From: a virus
Virus record (IMG/VR): IMGVR_UViG_3300003321_001124
Coordinates: 1-24,406 of that record
Length of the DNA stretch: 24,406 nt
Strand: one strand, 5' to 3'
Within the stretch, counting starts at the first letter, position 1. Every line of letters begins with the position of its first letter. Positions 2,350-17,433 of this stretch are shown piece by piece. Both the position numbers and the translations under genes were made by a program. The notes beneath the pieces are model-generated. The model saw nothing but the letters and a program-made list of their open reading frames with translations. It did not search any database and was not told where the DNA came from.

Positions 2350-2499
2350 ATTGTGGGGCTGTCGCCCAAATCCAGGCTCTGTGCTTTCCTGACCCGTTTT
2401 CACAACCTGGCCCAGTGAGCATCCAGCCCCACAATGCTTTACCAATGAATCCGGAGATGCTCACGGGATAAAAAACGGGTCGCGCGCCGCCAGGCGCGC
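2350..2499 (+). ncRNA. Candidate structured RNA: H-type pseudoknot leader of terL
   Basis: Four perfect helices can form in 150 bases. S1 is 2350-2361 with 2424-2435 (12 bp). S2 is 2415-2423 with 2456-2464 (9 bp). S3 is 2391-2400 with 2472-2481 (10 bp). S4 is the hairpin 2482-2488/2493-2499 (7 bp, loop GCCA). S2 nests inside S3, while S1 crosses both. The S2 5' strand abuts the S1 3' strand with no linker, the geometry of a coaxially stacked H-type pseudoknot. S4 directly follows S3. A competing hairpin GGGC-TGTC-GCCC (2356-2367) could disrupt S1, so a switch is conceivable. It ends about eight bases before the terL ribosome binding site. It matches no riboswitch or ribozyme I know. Confidence 0.55.
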
Positions 2500-2517: not shown

Positions 2518-4221
2518 TTGGTTGAAAGATTTAAACCCGTAGTGATTGACCAGACTTGGGACGCAGCCAAGCAGATTCGTGCGCATCGCACCAATTCGCT
2601 TGGTATGTTGTACTATTTTGTCAAGGTCACGCTGCGCAGGGTAAAATTGACCGACGAACTCCATTTGCCTCTTTGTTTGTTTTTTGAGCGCGATCACATC
2701 GAAGATGTAGTCGAGTGGCCCCGTGACCATTACAAAACCACTATGGGCCCAGAAGGTCTCAATATGTGGTCTGCTCTGCCATTCACTACAGAGGACGAGG
2801 ATGAGTTCCATGCGCTTGGTTACTCCGACGATTTTATCGCGTGGATGCACCGGGCACATAACCCGAATACCCGAAACCTCGTCATCTCTGAGAACATCAC
2901 GAACGCGGCAAAAATCGGTACAAGAATCAGATACCACTATGAAAGTAATGATCTTTACCGAGTGCAATTCCCGGAAACATTACCTGATTCAAGTTGTACC
3001 TGGACTAACTATTCGCTACAAGTAAAACGCCCGAAGGGCGGTGTGGGCGGAGCCCACGGCGAAGGAACGTTTGATTTTATCGGCGTAGGCGGTGCGTTAC
3101 AATCTCGGCACTATAATGGTATTATATTCGAGGACGACTTGGTCGGTAGAAAAGCGGTTGAATCACCTTCGGTGATGGAGAAAACGATCAATTTCCATCA
3201 GTTGATTGAGCCGCTTTTTGAGCACGATGACCCGAATTTCTCTGGCCGTAGGCTGGTGATCGGAAATCGATGGGGCTGGCAAGACCTCAATTCATACATC
3301 CGGGAACACGAAAAATCGTTCAACGTCACTACACACTCCGCTCTGGGTGGGTGCTGTATGATGCACCCGCCGGATGTTCCAATCTTACCCAGTGTCTTCT
3401 CCTTCGATAAACTGGCAAAGCTTCGCCAGAAGCTTGGCGCGTATATGTTTTCTTGCCAGTATCTCAACAACCCCTGCGCCCCAGAGGATTCCGAATTTAA
3501 AGAAAGGGACATTCGTCATTTTACAATAAAGGAGATTAATGGCGAGAAATACATTGTCCCCGAAGTCGTTAACGGAGTCGTTCGACCGAAGATTAAGATT
3601 GCGCATCTTGCAAAGGCGCTTATCACTGACCCTAACCATTCTGGCCAGTCTGGTTCTGGTCGCTGCCGTCATGCAATTGTCGTTGTCGGCCTCGACTCGG
3701 AAGGTAATTATTATCTTCTTGACAGTTGGGCTATGGGTTGTTCCTATGACCAGTATTTTGCTCAATTGTATCGTATGGCGGTTGAATGGCGCCTCAACAA
3801 AGTCGGGTTCGAAACCGTAGCTGCACAAAAATTTGCCGCTTTTCATTTGGCCCATTTGAACAAAGTTCAGCCGTGGAAACTGAAAATCGTCGAATGTAAA
3901 GGCGAAGTTCAGCTTCCTGACGGTTCCGTTTCAAAGAAGAAAAAATGGCGTATTTATAACGTCATCGCTCCGATCCTTGAAAGCGGCCGTTTCTGGATGC
4001 GCAAGAACGAAAACGGCATCGTGATGCACCAGGATTTTTTGGGTGAAATGACCACCTTTACAATGACTGAAGGTGGCGGCAAGTATTGCGATCAGATCGA
4101 CGCTTGGGCGTATGCTCCGCAGGTTTTGAAAGCGCCCAACAGTTACGATAAGGATTTGCGGTTCTTGCTTGCTAACCGCGAACAAATGAAGCTTATCAAC
4201 AAGCCGTATATTTTATCGTAA
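2518..4221 (+). CDS. terL: Terminase large subunit (packaging ATPase/nuclease)
   Basis: The 567-residue motor pumps DNA into the prohead and cuts it. ATPase: Walker A RDHYKTT (69-75), Walker B IIFEDD (202-207) and a coupling motif IGNRWGW (248-254). QYLNNP (314-319) precedes the nuclease half, whose RNase H-like acidic residues are probably D371 (ALITDPNHS), E432 (VGFETVAAQ) and D525/D528 (CDQIDAWAY). The length is typical of the family. The start is TTG, supported by AAGGA seven bases upstream; no early ATG exists. It follows the structured RNA 2350-2499 and overlaps the next gene by one base (TAATG). Family assignment is secure. Confidence 0.95.
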   Translation: MVERFKPVVIDQTWDAAKQIRAHRTNSLGMLYYFVKVTLRRVKLTDELHLPLCLFFERDHIEDVVEWPRDHYKTTMGPEGLNMWSALPFTTEDEDEFHALGYSDDFIAWMHRAHNPNTRNLVISENITNAAKIGTRIRYHYESNDLYRVQFPETLPDSSCTWTNYSLQVKRPKGGVGGAHGEGTFDFIGVGGALQSRHYNGIIFEDDLVGRKAVESPSVMEKTINFHQLIEPLFEHDDPNFSGRRLVIGNRWGWQDLNSYIREHEKSFNVTTHSALGGCCMMHPPDVPILPSVFSFDKLAKLRQKLGAYMFSCQYLNNPCAPEDSEFKERDIRHFTIKEINGEKYIVPEVVNGVVRPKIKIAHLAKALITDPNHSGQSGSGRCRHAIVVVGLDSEGNYYLLDSWAMGCSYDQYFAQLYRMAVEWRLNKVGFETVAAQKFAAFHLAHLNKVQPWKLKIVECKGEVQLPDGSVSKKKKWRIYNVIAPILESGRFWMRKNENGIVMHQDFLGEMTTFTMTEGGGKYCDQIDAWAYAPQVLKAPNSYDKDLRFLLANREQMKLINKPYILS

Positions 4222-4592
4222 TGTGGACTTGGCTACAATCCGAAGGTGACCTCTGGCATGATGGACGATTTGTCCACACCGGCTACTCCGGCTTCGGCGA
4301 AGGCAAAAACAATCCTGCGATGCAGGAAATTCATGGTATTGGCCCCTTGCCGAAAGGCAAGTACAAAATGAAGGTCATTACTGAAAACGGCCAGTGGGTT
4401 GATTACGAAGGCAAAAAAGCTCCTGTGATTCGCCTTTTTCCTGCGGCTGAAAATAACATGTTTGGTCGTGATGGTTTCTTGATTCACGGCGATAATAAAG
4501 ACCACACCGCTTCGCATGGTTGTGTCATTGAAGACCATGATATTAGAGTACAAATTGCGTTGAGCGGTGATGAGGATTTAGAGGTCGTATGA
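4221..4592 (+). CDS. L,D-transpeptidase-like / Tlde1 (DUF2778)-type cell-wall enzyme, probable endolysin
   Basis: A 123-residue protein resembling the DUF2778/Tlde1 family, a branch of the L,D-transpeptidase fold acting on peptidoglycan tetrapeptides. Visible are the N-terminal YSGFGEGKNNPAM (22-34), GPLPKGKYKM (41-50), and the catalytic block FLIHGDN with TASHGC, giving H89, S98, H99, G100 and nucleophile C101. No signal peptide is present, so a holin would be needed for access to the wall; the next gene looks like one. Position right after terL and before a holin-like and a lipoprotein gene argues for host lysis. An alternative is a virion-associated or superinfection-related wall modifier. 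Confidence 0.75.
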   Translation: MWTWLQSEGDLWHDGRFVHTGYSGFGEGKNNPAMQEIHGIGPLPKGKYKMKVITENGQWVDYEGKKAPVIRLFPAAENNMFGRDGFLIHGDNKDHTASHGCVIEDHDIRVQIALSGDEDLEVV

Positions 4593-4837: not shown

Positions 4838-5376
4838 GAAAAACTCTCTCTGTCCTGCTGGCATTGGTCATTTGTGTGACCAGTGTTGGTTGCAAGCCTG
4901 AAGTTTACAAAACCATTGAAACCGCCGAACAAGTGGTCTCTGCCGCACAGCAGATTCTCTCGACATCCAACCCGGAAGCCGGAGCAATCCTGGTCCAGGT
5001 GGGGTCTGGATTGTCAACACTTGACGCATTGCTACACCAGTACGACCAGTCAGTGGCAGCCGGCAAGCCTGGCATTGCGACACAGATCCAGGCGGTGGCA
5101 AATACCATTACGGCGAACCTTTCCACCGTCCTTAGCGTGGTGAAGGTGAAAAATCCCGAGCTTATCGAATACATCACGACCGCGGTGGCGATTGCCAATT
5201 CCGTCATCAATGTTGTGATCGCCAATCTACCGACGACCAGTACGGCGCCGGCCATGGCAAGGGCTGATGGAACTGTGGGTGGCGCACTGCCAACGGTTCC
5301 ATTCAAGAACCACAAAGATCTAAAAAAGATCTGGAACGACAAGATCGGCGGCGCCTTCCCAAAGGCAAAGGTCTAA
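4834..5376 (+). CDS. Lipoprotein, possible spanin-like lysis protein
   Basis: 180 residues starting at GTG with AAGGAG eight bases upstream and a four-base overlap with the holin-like gene. Residues 1-20 form a signal peptide ending in TSVGC, a somewhat non-canonical lipobox (Ser at -3), so C20 is the likely lipidated residue. The mature part is helical with long amphipathic repeats rich in Ala, Val, Ile and Thr, then a basic C-terminus. A lipoprotein placed after an endolysin and holin suggests a spanin-type outer-membrane disruption role, implying a diderm host. No transmembrane partner (i-spanin) was found, so this is tentative. Confidence 0.6.
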   Translation: MRKTLSVLLALVICVTSVGCKPEVYKTIETAEQVVSAAQQILSTSNPEAGAILVQVGSGLSTLDALLHQYDQSVAAGKPGIATQIQAVANTITANLSTVLSVVKVKNPELIEYITTAVAIANSVINVVIANLPTTSTAPAMARADGTVGGALPTVPFKNHKDLKKIWNDKIGGAFPKAKV

Positions 5377-5377
5377 G

Positions 5378-7219
5378 TTGATTCAACCAATACCAATCCG
5401 GTTGGAAAAGGGTTCGGATGCTGAGAACCGTCTAAAGCGGTATCTTCACGACAAGGTTTTTAGCATCCGAACCGGGTTGAAACCTATACACGACAAGGTC
5501 GTGAAGTGGCGGCGTAACTATGAGGCACGGCCAGCAGAAGAAATCAGGGAATTTCCATTTCATAACGCCTCGAATGTGGTTGTACCGATTATTGCTATAC
5601 ATAGTAATACCCTTCTGGCTCGTGTTATGTCTGCTGTGGTCAAGACGCAGCCGCCGTGGAATTGTAAGGTAATATCGTCCGCGCAGCAGTTAAAGGAATT
5701 ATCAGGACTAGCGCCTGCACTTGAGCAGTTTTTAGGTTATGTTGCGTTTGAACCAAGCGAGCTTGATTTATATCGAGTTTACCATGAATGGTTTGGAGAA
5801 ACCATTCGTTACGGTACGGGAGTTGTCAAAAGTCCCGTCGTGCGGGAAATTGAAGATTCAGTTTTACCGGCAGGTGATGGGCTAGGGGATCCAAAAAAAC
5901 CCGAGTATATTACTACCACAGTTTACTCTGGTCCGCGACCGGAAAAAATTCCATTCACGGATTTTGGAATTTCCCCCACCGACAAAACAATCGAGTCTTC
6001 TGGCTTCAAATACCACGTTATCCATCTTCACCGGGAAGACCTTGAGGACAGAAAATACCGCGGTGTTTACGACCCTGCTGCTGTTGCCGATGTTCTTGGT
6101 CAGCCTGACCGTCAGTCCCCGCGTTATGTGCAACAGCAAATGGAATCCGATTCGGGCGCAAAAACAACCAGTGGATATGGTTGGGCCGAGTGGGATGTTT
6201 ACGAATGTTGGTTTAAATTCCGTATAGACGGAAAGCACAATGTTCGTTGCATCGTGTGGTATCACGAAAAGACTAATACCATTCTTCGGGCGTATTATAT
6301 GTACTATCCCGAAGAACCGTTCATCGCTGCGCGATTGTTTTACCGTGATGACAACTTCCACGGTTACGGATTTTGTGAAATGTTGGAGCCGATGACGGAG
6401 GAGATCTCCAACATTCACAATGGGCGGCTGGACAATCAAACGGTCTGCAATGCCAAGGGCTTCCGGGTTGACCCTGATAGTAAACTCCATCAAGGTTATC
6501 GGATTTTCCCGAGTTGTATGCTTCCCGGCGCAGAAGGCGAAATCGAAGCATTCTCACTTGGTGAAGTCGGAATGGTTCCTATCGAAGCCGAGAGGCTCTC
6601 GCTTGAGCTTGCCGAAAAGCTCACTGGTGTAAGCGGACCAATTCAGGGCGCTGGCGCGGGTTTCAACACCAAACGTGGTGTTTACAGCGCGATGGGCACG
6701 CTGTCACTTTTGCAAGAAGGCAACACCCGCACCGATCTGAACGTCACCGACATGCGCTACGCGGTCACCAAATTTGGCAGAATGCTCTGTCGTCAGTACA
6801 ACATGACTGGTTTGGGCGACCGCAAAGATGCTTTCGGTGAAATGGGTGAAAAGATCGAACTGGCGTTGAAGGCGCTTGAGCAAAAACAGATTATCATTCC
6901 AGTTGCCTCAAGCACCGCCAGTGTAAACCGTGAGGTCGAAAAACAGAATGATCTAATGTTGTCTGGACTGCTGGCTCGCCATTACCAACAAATCACACAA
7001 ATGCTCCAGGCAACAGCAGACCCACGAGTTCCGCCGAATATTCAGAAGTATGTGGGTGAGTCAATCATTTCCATGAACGAAGTTATGAAGATTGTTCTTC
7101 TTCATTTCGGCTTTAGTGAAATTGATAAGCTCATCCCTAAGCCGGAAACGGCTCCGCCTCAGACTGGTGGGATGCCGCCACAAGGCGCGCCGCAACAGCC
7201 ACTAACGGGGGTGCAATGA
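5378..7219 (+). CDS. Portal protein
   Basis: 613 residues; forms the dodecameric ring at one capsid vertex through which DNA passes. Recognisable portal features include the acidic/aromatic segment YYPEEPFIAARLFYRDDNFHG (about 308-328) followed by the helix EMLEPMTEEISNIHNGRLDN, a stem-like region after GPIQGAGAGFNTKRG (about 420-435), and a long helical wing/C-terminal barrel ending in a Pro/Gln-rich tail. It starts at TTG one base after the preceding stop, with AAAGG about six bases upstream; the next in-frame ATG would remove conserved sequence. Length and position after packaging and lysis genes fit short-tailed phages. Confidence 0.85.
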   Translation: MIQPIPIRLEKGSDAENRLKRYLHDKVFSIRTGLKPIHDKVVKWRRNYEARPAEEIREFPFHNASNVVVPIIAIHSNTLLARVMSAVVKTQPPWNCKVISSAQQLKELSGLAPALEQFLGYVAFEPSELDLYRVYHEWFGETIRYGTGVVKSPVVREIEDSVLPAGDGLGDPKKPEYITTTVYSGPRPEKIPFTDFGISPTDKTIESSGFKYHVIHLHREDLEDRKYRGVYDPAAVADVLGQPDRQSPRYVQQQMESDSGAKTTSGYGWAEWDVYECWFKFRIDGKHNVRCIVWYHEKTNTILRAYYMYYPEEPFIAARLFYRDDNFHGYGFCEMLEPMTEEISNIHNGRLDNQTVCNAKGFRVDPDSKLHQGYRIFPSCMLPGAEGEIEAFSLGEVGMVPIEAERLSLELAEKLTGVSGPIQGAGAGFNTKRGVYSAMGTLSLLQEGNTRTDLNVTDMRYAVTKFGRMLCRQYNMTGLGDRKDAFGEMGEKIELALKALEQKQIIIPVASSTASVNREVEKQNDLMLSGLLARHYQQITQMLQATADPRVPPNIQKYVGESIISMNEVMKIVLLHFGFSEIDKLIPKPETAPPQTGGMPPQGAPQQPLTGVQ

Positions 7220-15527: not shown

Positions 15528-17137
15528 TACCACCCAATACATTACGTGAAGGCGAACGACCGGAGTTTGTGCTCCGTGGTCCCTTTGGTGGGATTCAAAC
15601 GGAACTACCGGCTCATTTGATCGAACAGATCGGTGGGTTGGTTGATTCGACTAATTTCTTTTTCAGACATGGTCAAGCTATTGTTCGACCTGGGGTATCG
15701 GCGTTATCGCCTTTTCCAGCGGCGGGTCCGGCCAACGAACAAGCAAACGGAATCATTAACTTTTATGACTCTACTGGTACGTTACGCCAAATGGTGCTTA
15801 CTGCTGGTAGCGTTGCTGGTGGGCGACTGCTTCAATGGAACGGCCCAGCTGGCGGCTGGACAAACATACCTGCTGGTGTTGCTCTTACAGGAACTAGCAT
15901 AAACCAGTTTACCTACGATACGGTAAACTACAAACTATGTTTCTGTCAGGGCATTGATAAAATACAACTCTGGGATGGCATTACTGCCAATTTTAATGTC
16001 GCTTCCGTGAATGCTCCAGTTGCACGTTATTTGGCAGAAATTGCTAACCATTTAGTTACTGGTTATACCACTGAAGGTGGCATCACTTTTCCACAGCGGG
16101 TACGCTGGTCGGGTACAGGTGATCCTACTGATTGGACTGGGCCAAGCGCTGGTGCTAATGACCGTCTTAATAATTTTGGTCCGATTACAGGCATTGCCAA
16201 ACTTTACCAGCAAGGTTTCGGCTTTCAGCAAAAAGGAATCTTTCAAATAATTCCAACCGGCATCGGCACTAACCCATTTGCTTTTATCGACCTTGGTGCC
16301 CGCGCACGCGGTAATGCCTTCCCATTTTCGTTGGATGTTTACGACGAGCGTACTGCGTATTATGTGGGAACGGACAATGTTTATGCTTTTGATGGTACAC
16401 AAAGCGTTGGTGTCGGGGAATTCCCAATGCAGGGTCGCCAAAGGCAGGGTGCATGGGGAGCAATTTCATCGGATTTACAAGCAGCGAATCCGAATACAGT
16501 TGTCGGTGCGGTTTCAACCAGTATTAACGGGCGACGTTTTAATGCTTATTGGTTGTTTATACCGGGCATAACCTGCTGGGTTTTTAACATTGACGAAGGA
16601 AATTGGACACGGGCATCATTCGCCAAAACTGTAAGCCGTGCGGATTACTTCACCAACAACGGCATCATCAGAATCGCTGATTTAGTCGGCACAATCTTGC
16701 AACAAAACTGGACACCGGCTACGTTACAAGGGAACAATCCGTTTGATAACTTCTTCATTGGTTTTACCGATGGGACACCAGGTATGATAGATTTTACCAG
16801 TTTCAGCGAACAACCGTTCTCCTTGCAGACTGGTCAGATCGTAGCCGGTGACCTTCGTCATGAAAAAATTGTCAATACTGTTCGGATTGTTTATCAGGAT
16901 TTGGGTGTTGCAACATTTACACTAACTGTCTCAAATGAAAAAGGTGAAACCCGAACCAGAACAGTTACAATTGGTAGTGGAACTGGTAAGATGCTTGCCT
17001 CAATTATACCGTTACAGGGGCAGATCACTGGAATGTTTATGACATTCCAAATCAGCGGCGCTGCCGCTCAACCACTTTCCATCTCGGAAATCGCTGCTTT
17101 TTACGACACAGGCGCAGAATGCCGGGTGACGGTATAG
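15524..17137 (+). CDS. Beta-propeller tail nozzle / DNA-stabilisation protein (P22 gp10, T7 gp12-like)
   Basis: 537 residues. Start chosen at ATG 15524 in an ATGA overlap with the fibre-like gene; a TTG two codons upstream is less likely. The middle shows QRVRWSGTGDPTDWTG (191-206), then GPITGIAKLYQQGFGFQQKGIFQI, the hallmark of P22 gp10-type hub proteins and related short-tail nozzle proteins with a beta-propeller. Repeated aromatic beta-blades follow (AYYVGTDNVYAFDG, FNAYWLFIPGITCWVFN). In short-tailed phages this protein plugs the portal-adaptor channel after packaging. Its presence is the main reason to infer podovirus-like morphology. Confidence 0.75.
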   Translation: MIPPNTLREGERPEFVLRGPFGGIQTELPAHLIEQIGGLVDSTNFFFRHGQAIVRPGVSALSPFPAAGPANEQANGIINFYDSTGTLRQMVLTAGSVAGGRLLQWNGPAGGWTNIPAGVALTGTSINQFTYDTVNYKLCFCQGIDKIQLWDGITANFNVASVNAPVARYLAEIANHLVTGYTTEGGITFPQRVRWSGTGDPTDWTGPSAGANDRLNNFGPITGIAKLYQQGFGFQQKGIFQIIPTGIGTNPFAFIDLGARARGNAFPFSLDVYDERTAYYVGTDNVYAFDGTQSVGVGEFPMQGRQRQGAWGAISSDLQAANPNTVVGAVSTSINGRRFNAYWLFIPGITCWVFNIDEGNWTRASFAKTVSRADYFTNNGIIRIADLVGTILQQNWTPATLQGNNPFDNFFIGFTDGTPGMIDFTSFSEQPFSLQTGQIVAGDLRHEKIVNTVRIVYQDLGVATFTLTVSNEKGETRTRTVTIGSGTGKMLASIIPLQGQITGMFMTFQISGAAAQPLSISEIAAFYDTGAECRVTV

Positions 17138-17139
17138 AT

Positions 17140-17433
17140 ATGGCAAAAATGGCAAATTCATGGGGTAGAAAACGCTCCCTCCAACGGTACAGAAATTTAA
17201 GACGGGAGGTTTTAGAATTCTTTGGAGGAGTTTGTGTGGAATGTGGTTTCTCGGATTTTAGAGCCCTTCAGCTTGACCATATTAATGGTGGTGGTACTGC
17301 TGAACGAAACTCCCTTCCTTTTGAAGGGGTGTTTAAAAGGGCCCTTAAGTTTCCCGACGAATATCAACTTTTGTGCGCTAATTGTAATTGGATTAAAAGG
17401 TATGTAAATAGTGAGTGGAAGGGACAGAAGTGA
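17140..17433 (+). CDS. Free-standing HNH endonuclease
   Basis: 97 residues from ATG 17140 (alternatives: 17119, overlapping the preceding gene, or 17149). The HNH fold is visible: zinc pairs C32/C35 (CVECG) and C79/C82 (CANC), catalytic-site LQLDHINGGG with D46-H47, and the closing YQLLCANCNWIKR. Such nucleases nick or cut DNA and often spread as mobile homing genes between phage structural genes, though terminase-associated HNHs also exist. It is noticeably AT-richer than both neighbours, supporting acquisition. Its stop overlaps the next start (GTGA). Confidence 0.85.
   Translation: MAKMANSWGRKRSLQRYRNLRREVLEFFGGVCVECGFSDFRALQLDHINGGGTAERNSLPFEGVFKRALKFPDEYQLLCANCNWIKRYVNSEWKGQK

Follow-up and report, generated by a model that had tools for sequence, protein, structure and literature searches.

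The gap directly upstream of the large terminase gene (terL) in an uncultured soil phage is predicted to encode a compact RNA of ~150 nt with several pseudoknots, and comparison with relatives shows this putative RNA to be one member of an intercistronic class, lying in the sense direction at the boundary between the terS-side genes and terL. Since the same fold recurs in very different sequence among these relatives, the class is almost certainly real and undescribed. The window, meaning the whole stretch of DNA analysed, is a 24.4-kb IMG/VR fragment without a close relative among annotated phages. Its plus strand carries an HTH protein gene in the terS position (1492-1968; small terminase-like, unmatched in PHROG and Pfam, with homologues also upstream of terL in relatives), a small Cys/His-rich gene (1968-2345; no Pfam or PHROG match) and terL itself (2518-4221; phrog_38, E = 3e-51), which has a TTG start with AAGGAAG upstream. 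A gap of 172 bases (2346-2517) separates the small Cys-rich gene from terL, and its plus strand holds no open reading frame (ORF) of ≥50 aa, in agreement with the poor coding potential that an earlier note on this DNA had ascribed to the RNA region. The fragment has non-coding DNA elsewhere too, in a second ORF-poor stretch near 970-1491 that is longer than the gap, which qualifies the accompanying description of the remainder as nearly gap-free coding sequence. Flanked by a minus-strand gene (583-969) and, on the plus strand, by the terS-like gene, this second stretch is probably a divergent promoter region. The gene following terL (4221-4592) matches phrog_24118, of unknown function, and includes a HGDNKDHTASHGC stretch that resembles peptidoglycan-active enzymes.

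The four perfect helices described earlier at 2350-2499 were recovered (S1, 12 bp; S2, 9 bp; S3, 10 bp; S4, 7 bp), occupying 76 of 150 bases, and their topology proved exactly as claimed, with S2 inside S3, S1 crossing both, and no linker between S2a and S1b or between S3 and S4. Comparison with relatives added two further helices in the window, P6 (CCAGG/CCTGG) and P2.5 (CCC/GGG). On the plus strand, the 5' arm of S1 (ATTGTGGGGCTG, 2350-2361) begins 4 nt past the upstream stop codon and is followed by AAA (2368-2370), an unpaired motif recurring in the RNA family just 5' of P6a, by the P6 5' arm (CCAGG, 2372-2376), by TTTCCT (2385-2390), a recurring pyrimidine motif in the P6 loop directly before S3a, and by the S3 5' arm (GACCCGTTTT, 2391-2400). 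Because the P6 loop contains S3a, P6 and S3 together form an H-type pseudoknot. The P6 3' arm (CCTGG, 2406-2410) abuts the 5' arm of P2.5 (CCC, 2411-2413), which stacks with P6b (0 nt linker) on one side and with the S2 5' arm (GTGAGCATC, 2415-2423) on the other, and this S2 arm runs with 0 nt into the S1 3' arm (CAGCCCCACAAT, 2424-2435). Beyond the loop closed by S2 (2436-2455) come the 3' arms of S2 (GATGCTCAC, 2456-2464), P2.5 (GGG, 2465-2467) and S3 (AAAACGGGTC, 2472-2481), and finally the S4 hairpin (GCGCGCC GCCA GGCGCGC, 2482-2499; arms 2482-2488 and 2493-2499), which abuts S3. The predicted order shown by this comparison is S1a-AAA-P6a-UUUCCU-S3a-P6b-P2.5a-S2a-S1b-loop-S2b-P2.5b-S3b-S4. 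A further helix seen in relatives, S5, pairs bases after S1a with the 3' part of the loop closed by S2; it is strong in L032, L191 and L149, moderate elsewhere and not evident in the window, and was treated as optional. S5 aside, all class elements tested in the window are present, namely S1 crossing S2 and S3, the S2a-S1b and P6b-P2.5a abutments, and S4 after S3. The competing GGGC/GCCC hairpin previously pointed out (2356-2359/2364-2367) does appear in the nested MFE fold.

Crossing perfect helices of this kind had been judged very unlikely by chance, and the controls bear this out. The S1 x S3/S2 topology comprises 31 bp in the window, compared to a best of 25 bp in 3.5 Mb of composition-matched, first-order Markov sequence. 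The nested fold without S1 gave z = -3.7 on the plus strand, with none of 200 dinucleotide shuffles as good (z = -2.7 on the minus strand), thus exceeding the shuffled sequence against which the earlier note had proposed to judge it.

Used as a query, the window's terL returned one weak relative, and it was the portal and capsid proteins that supplied the relatives; these queries, followed by terL alignments, yielded ~200 loci with terL ~50% identical to that of the window. Scanning the loci with a topology descriptor for the S1 x S3/S2 arrangement uncovered an RNA of matching architecture between terS-side genes and terL in no fewer than 22 of the 91 distinct terL loci, where members were recognized by topology, sequence similarity or eye (21 plus L275). 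The RNA lies on the sense strand in all members, and its helix sequences differ among them. Scored with P6, 13 of the 88 distinct upstream regions surpassed every one of 176 shuffles of those regions, the topology plus P6 scores being -97 for L112 and -80 for the window against -70 for the best shuffle; one of the 13, L203, was atypical and not counted as a member. Topology matches in L021/L155, L015, L117, L072 and L203 were set aside, being in or near coding sequence or missing other elements. Structural variants within the class include L034/L025, with one 9-bp helix in place of P2.5 and S2, 17 nt from S1b, and L231, without a clear S2. Copies, searched for mainly in the terL/portal/capsid neighbourhood, were found only upstream of terL, with a likely copy in L120 as far as ~2.9 kb upstream. 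By sequence, BLASTN against annotated phages gave no match for the RNA of the window or L112, and the exact 16-mer of the S2a/S1b junction had 10 matches in viral contigs, all chance. A covariance model from trimmed members (R1) recovered L056 and L231 in addition to its seed, and was not used for statistics, as the sequence filters of Infernal probably lose most members. Outside viral contigs, the only cellular-genome terL relative found (L244, 39% identity) was on the Sulfuriferula MAG contig JARLJL010000016.1, a possible host lead.

Since MAFFT did not bring the helices into register when given all members, the helices were located with the topology descriptor and checked in small sequence-alignable groups. 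To assess covariation, the structure was taken from one member per group (L141, L032 and L056) and the other members were aligned by sequence only, which avoided fitting alignments to structure. In totals that exclude the poorly aligned L029 and L025 comparisons and the optional S5, and with P values that are indicative because related sequences are not independent events, 33 of 47 changed pairs were still complementary, compared to 110 of 416 for the remaining stems of ≥5 bp (P = 5e-9), both-sided compensatory changes made up 23 of the 47 changed pairs, compared to 26 of 416 for these control stems (P = 5e-13), and with the 3' partner shifted by 1-3 there were 10 double changes over six registers versus 23 in the true register (P = 7e-10). 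The check proposed earlier, for covarying S1-S3 helices in related phages, thus found double changes in S1 (7), S3 (6) and S2 (5), and also in P2.5 (3) and P6 (2). These covarying helices are those of relatives rather than the window's own; the window is too diverged for sequence alignment, and its membership therefore rests on identical topology and spacing. Few unpaired bases are conserved across members, suggesting that shape is kept rather than a sequence core. The prospect that the structure is an artefact of chance or composition is negligible: a general caution about inverted repeats in GC-rich DNA is all that favours it, whereas the fold z-score, the 3.5-Mb random control, the shuffled upstream regions and the covariation are all contrary, and the relatives refute it.

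The initial impression that this RNA fits no described class is reinforced by the Rfam search that had been recommended, as no family in Rfam 15 matched the window or 10 relatives at gathering score, and the same topology recurs in at least 22 loci with compensatory changes in every helix. At E values up to 10, the window stretch gave only a chance match to SNORA38 (E = 5.4); seven relatives gave no match to the RNA at E up to 1, and the flaviviral xrRNA families in Rfam were not matched. No description of this terS-terL pseudoknot RNA was found in the open-access papers searched. A group I intron, in which P3 and P7 cross with P4-P6 between them, was rejected: in contrast to P7, S3 surrounds S2 and has its pairing outside it, and Rfam Intron_gpI did not match. 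Nearest by kind are ROOL and GOLLD, non-coding structured phage RNAs with elaborate folds and unknown function (PMC12286853), which differ in being large (GOLLD often >800 nt) and usually near tRNA islands, and whose Rfam models miss the window RNA. By analogy of place, the nearest known system is the cabRNA of staphylococcal phages, a structured RNA from the terS-terL region that varies in sequence between phages and activates CBASS (PMC10686824). cabRNA itself lies inside the terS/terL coding sequences and is described as hairpins, with no fold common to phages (PMC10686824), whereas the window RNA has a conserved multi-pseudoknot fold and is intergenic rather than derived from terS/terL coding sequence, so identity with cabRNA was rejected. 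By imagined mechanism, the nearest analogue is the flaviviral exoribonuclease-resistant RNA, likewise a compact viral RNA that carries multiple pseudoknots and lies in untranslated sequence; as a precedent for a mechanical block of bacterial RNase J1 by viral multi-pseudoknot RNA, one of these flaviviral RNAs also stops that enzyme (PMC5760640). These RNAs differ in their other helix order, three-way junction and conserved core (PMC5760640), and a mechanical block is only proposed for the window RNA. Known exonuclease-resistant RNAs are defined by ring-like threading, and their hallmark is to halt a 5'-3' exonuclease at a set upstream stop.

The fold also invites comparison with self-cleaving ribozymes, which would cut the late message between cistrons. 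Nested pseudoknots of ~150 nt or less are found in small ribozymes, phages carry HDV-like ribozymes, and P6/S3, as an H-type pseudoknot with an inserted hairpin, resembles the P1/P2/P4 arrangement of HDV-like and theta ribozymes, in particular HDV P1/P2 (PMC10879173). However, the window RNA has no P3, no catalytic cytosine pattern and an extra S1 that crosses S2 and S3, and only 3-8 nt lie between S3a and P6b in tabulated members, leaving no space for the HDV P3 hairpin, which in the HDV-like order (P1-P2-P3-P1'-P4-P2') falls between P2a and P1b. With an HDV-like descriptor run on both strands across the family, scattered matches were obtained without a consistent core. An HDV-like ribozyme was thus rejected, and with no Rfam ribozyme match and no invariant catalytic core visible, self-cleavage of any type appears rather improbable. 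The put RNA of phage HK022 consists of simple hairpins, whereas the window RNA is a pseudoknot in a late operon. The likeness is that put is a structured, cis-acting RNA within a phage message; it differs in suppressing pausing and termination in early transcription (PMC9378689).

Evidence for an RNA rather than a DNA element comes from strand and pairing. All members share the orientation of the late genes, and an unbiased count of helix interruptions gave eight G.U and one A.C (P = 0.04, small numbers), the direction expected of plus-strand RNA; this count replaced one from a G.U-permitting helix finder, which was biased (28 versus 1). A DNA-level element, whether a pac/cos site, an inverted-repeat protein target or a cruciform, would suit inverted repeats visible in DNA beside the terminase genes, but is very improbable given that the repeats are interleaved and crossing with compensatory change, that G.U exceeds A.C by 8 to 1 in this small sample, and that no conserved sequence readable by a protein is present. 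The pac/cos recognition role once suggested is accordingly disfavoured by pseudoknot covariation, constant sense strand and the G.U excess. The plus strand of the gap (2346-2517) contains no promoter-like or terminator-like site, so the RNA would be read as part of the operon message, and we infer transcription within the late operon. S4 is followed on the plus strand by AATAAAAAAGG, without a T run, and terminator-like matches at S4 occur only on the minus strand; an intrinsic terminator of the late operon at S4 was therefore ruled out.

Position relative to neighbouring genes is constant, whichever genes these are. The RNA mostly starts 0-11 nt, and at most about 21 nt, past the upstream stop, overlapping it by up to four bases in three members, and the upstream genes of members are unrelated to one another. 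In L064, an endonuclease VII gene (1642-2019; Pfam E = 1.5e-9) lies directly before the RNA and its frame enters the RNA 5' half, through S1a to S1b. Small proteins of unknown family lie immediately before the RNA in several clades, as they do in the window, for example in L029 (3514-3825), L034 (1704-2012) and L193 (326-607), those of L029 and L034 being Cys-rich. Where a next start was found, the RNA ends 7-69 nt before it. A GGGTGCCGCCC hairpin occurs after the RNA and upstream of terL in L194 (about 2935-2965) and at the corresponding place in L192 and L193. The next gene is terL in most members, a small basic protein gene in L051, L056, L112 and L258, and HNH-like in L141. This variety counts against a translational switch for the next gene (terL in the window), which might work through pairing of the P6-loop UUUCCU with the AGGAAG ribosome binding site. 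Such a switch is improbable even though GGAAGCA (2509-2515), which spans the terL ribosome binding site, could base-pair with TGCTTTC (2382-2388) and a TTTCCT-like motif is recurrent in the family, as UUUCCU is expected to complement ribosome binding sites in general. The terL-specific form put forward earlier is disfavoured in particular, since several relatives have a different gene directly downstream.

The distribution of the RNA suggests a patchy element exchanged as a cassette. The terL starts of L034 and L035 are 97% identical with RNAs unrelated in sequence, whilst the RNAs of L025 and L034 are 78% identical, slightly above their flanks (63-75%), which suggests that the RNA evolves faster than its flanks or gets replaced. 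In L026, whose terL is nearly identical to that of L025, a small CxxC...HH ORF replaces the RNA. This ORF (about 5190-5480, upstream of terL; MKSDEPCVRCGS...HHIVY...CFNCHKQ) looks HNH-like, with Pfam HNH matching only at E = 0.08; the window has a small HNH/endonuclease VII-like ORF of its own in the tail module (17119-17433; weak Pfam matches, E = 0.03-0.04). On the terL tree, RNA presence needs ~10 changes versus 19 for shuffled labels, indicating that it is clustered, yet repeatedly gained or lost, and no RNA copy was detected in the window's nearest terL relatives. Presence in about a quarter of relatives, together with cassette exchange, implies that terL in these phages can be expressed without the RNA, a point against the cis roadblock discussed below.

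What the RNA does can be framed in two ways. Its position at the terS-terL boundary, kept regardless of helix sequence and of which genes adjoin it, points to action in cis by shape, and as the likeliest reading we tentatively infer a roadblock or insulator within the late mRNA. The knot would form immediately after the stop codon that ends the upstream cistron, where it could act as a mechanical roadblock halting 5'-3' decay (RNase J-like) that comes in from message upstream of it, and could uncouple upstream-cistron ribosomes from what follows, such that the terL-bearing part of the message would gain its own stability and translation rate. Alternatively, though this is unlikely, the RNA may be a trans-acting accessory that outlives the late message and acts free as optional cargo, for instance by decoying a host defence factor or by serving in packaging or assembly. 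Patchiness (~10 gains or losses) and cassette exchange, as in the L034/L035 and L025/L034 identities, are the main arguments for a trans-acting RNA, joined by the HNH-like replacement in L026 and by the precedents of ROOL and GOLLD (PMC12286853) and of CBASS-triggering cabRNA from terS-terL (PMC10686824). Against it, the plus strand of the gap supplies the RNA with neither a promoter-like nor a terminator-like site, and trans cargo would not need a constant operon position and orientation. We lean slightly towards an optional cassette class in which the fold alone is selected, either serving as a nuclease and ribosome block for terL or, once released, countering or tripping host defence as free RNA.

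The class presents a new type of RNA architecture, in which helix sets cross one another within ~150 nt and which is conserved in shape, almost free in sequence and overlooked by Rfam models and blastn. Its diverged natural members are a ready set for studying folding, nuclease resistance, cleavage and downstream-cistron effects. Being located where staphylococcal phages make a CBASS-activating RNA, it bears on the purpose of terS-terL phage RNA. If the proposed reading is true, the RNA would be a DNA-phage counterpart of exoribonuclease-resistant RNA, or a free RNA acting on host defence.
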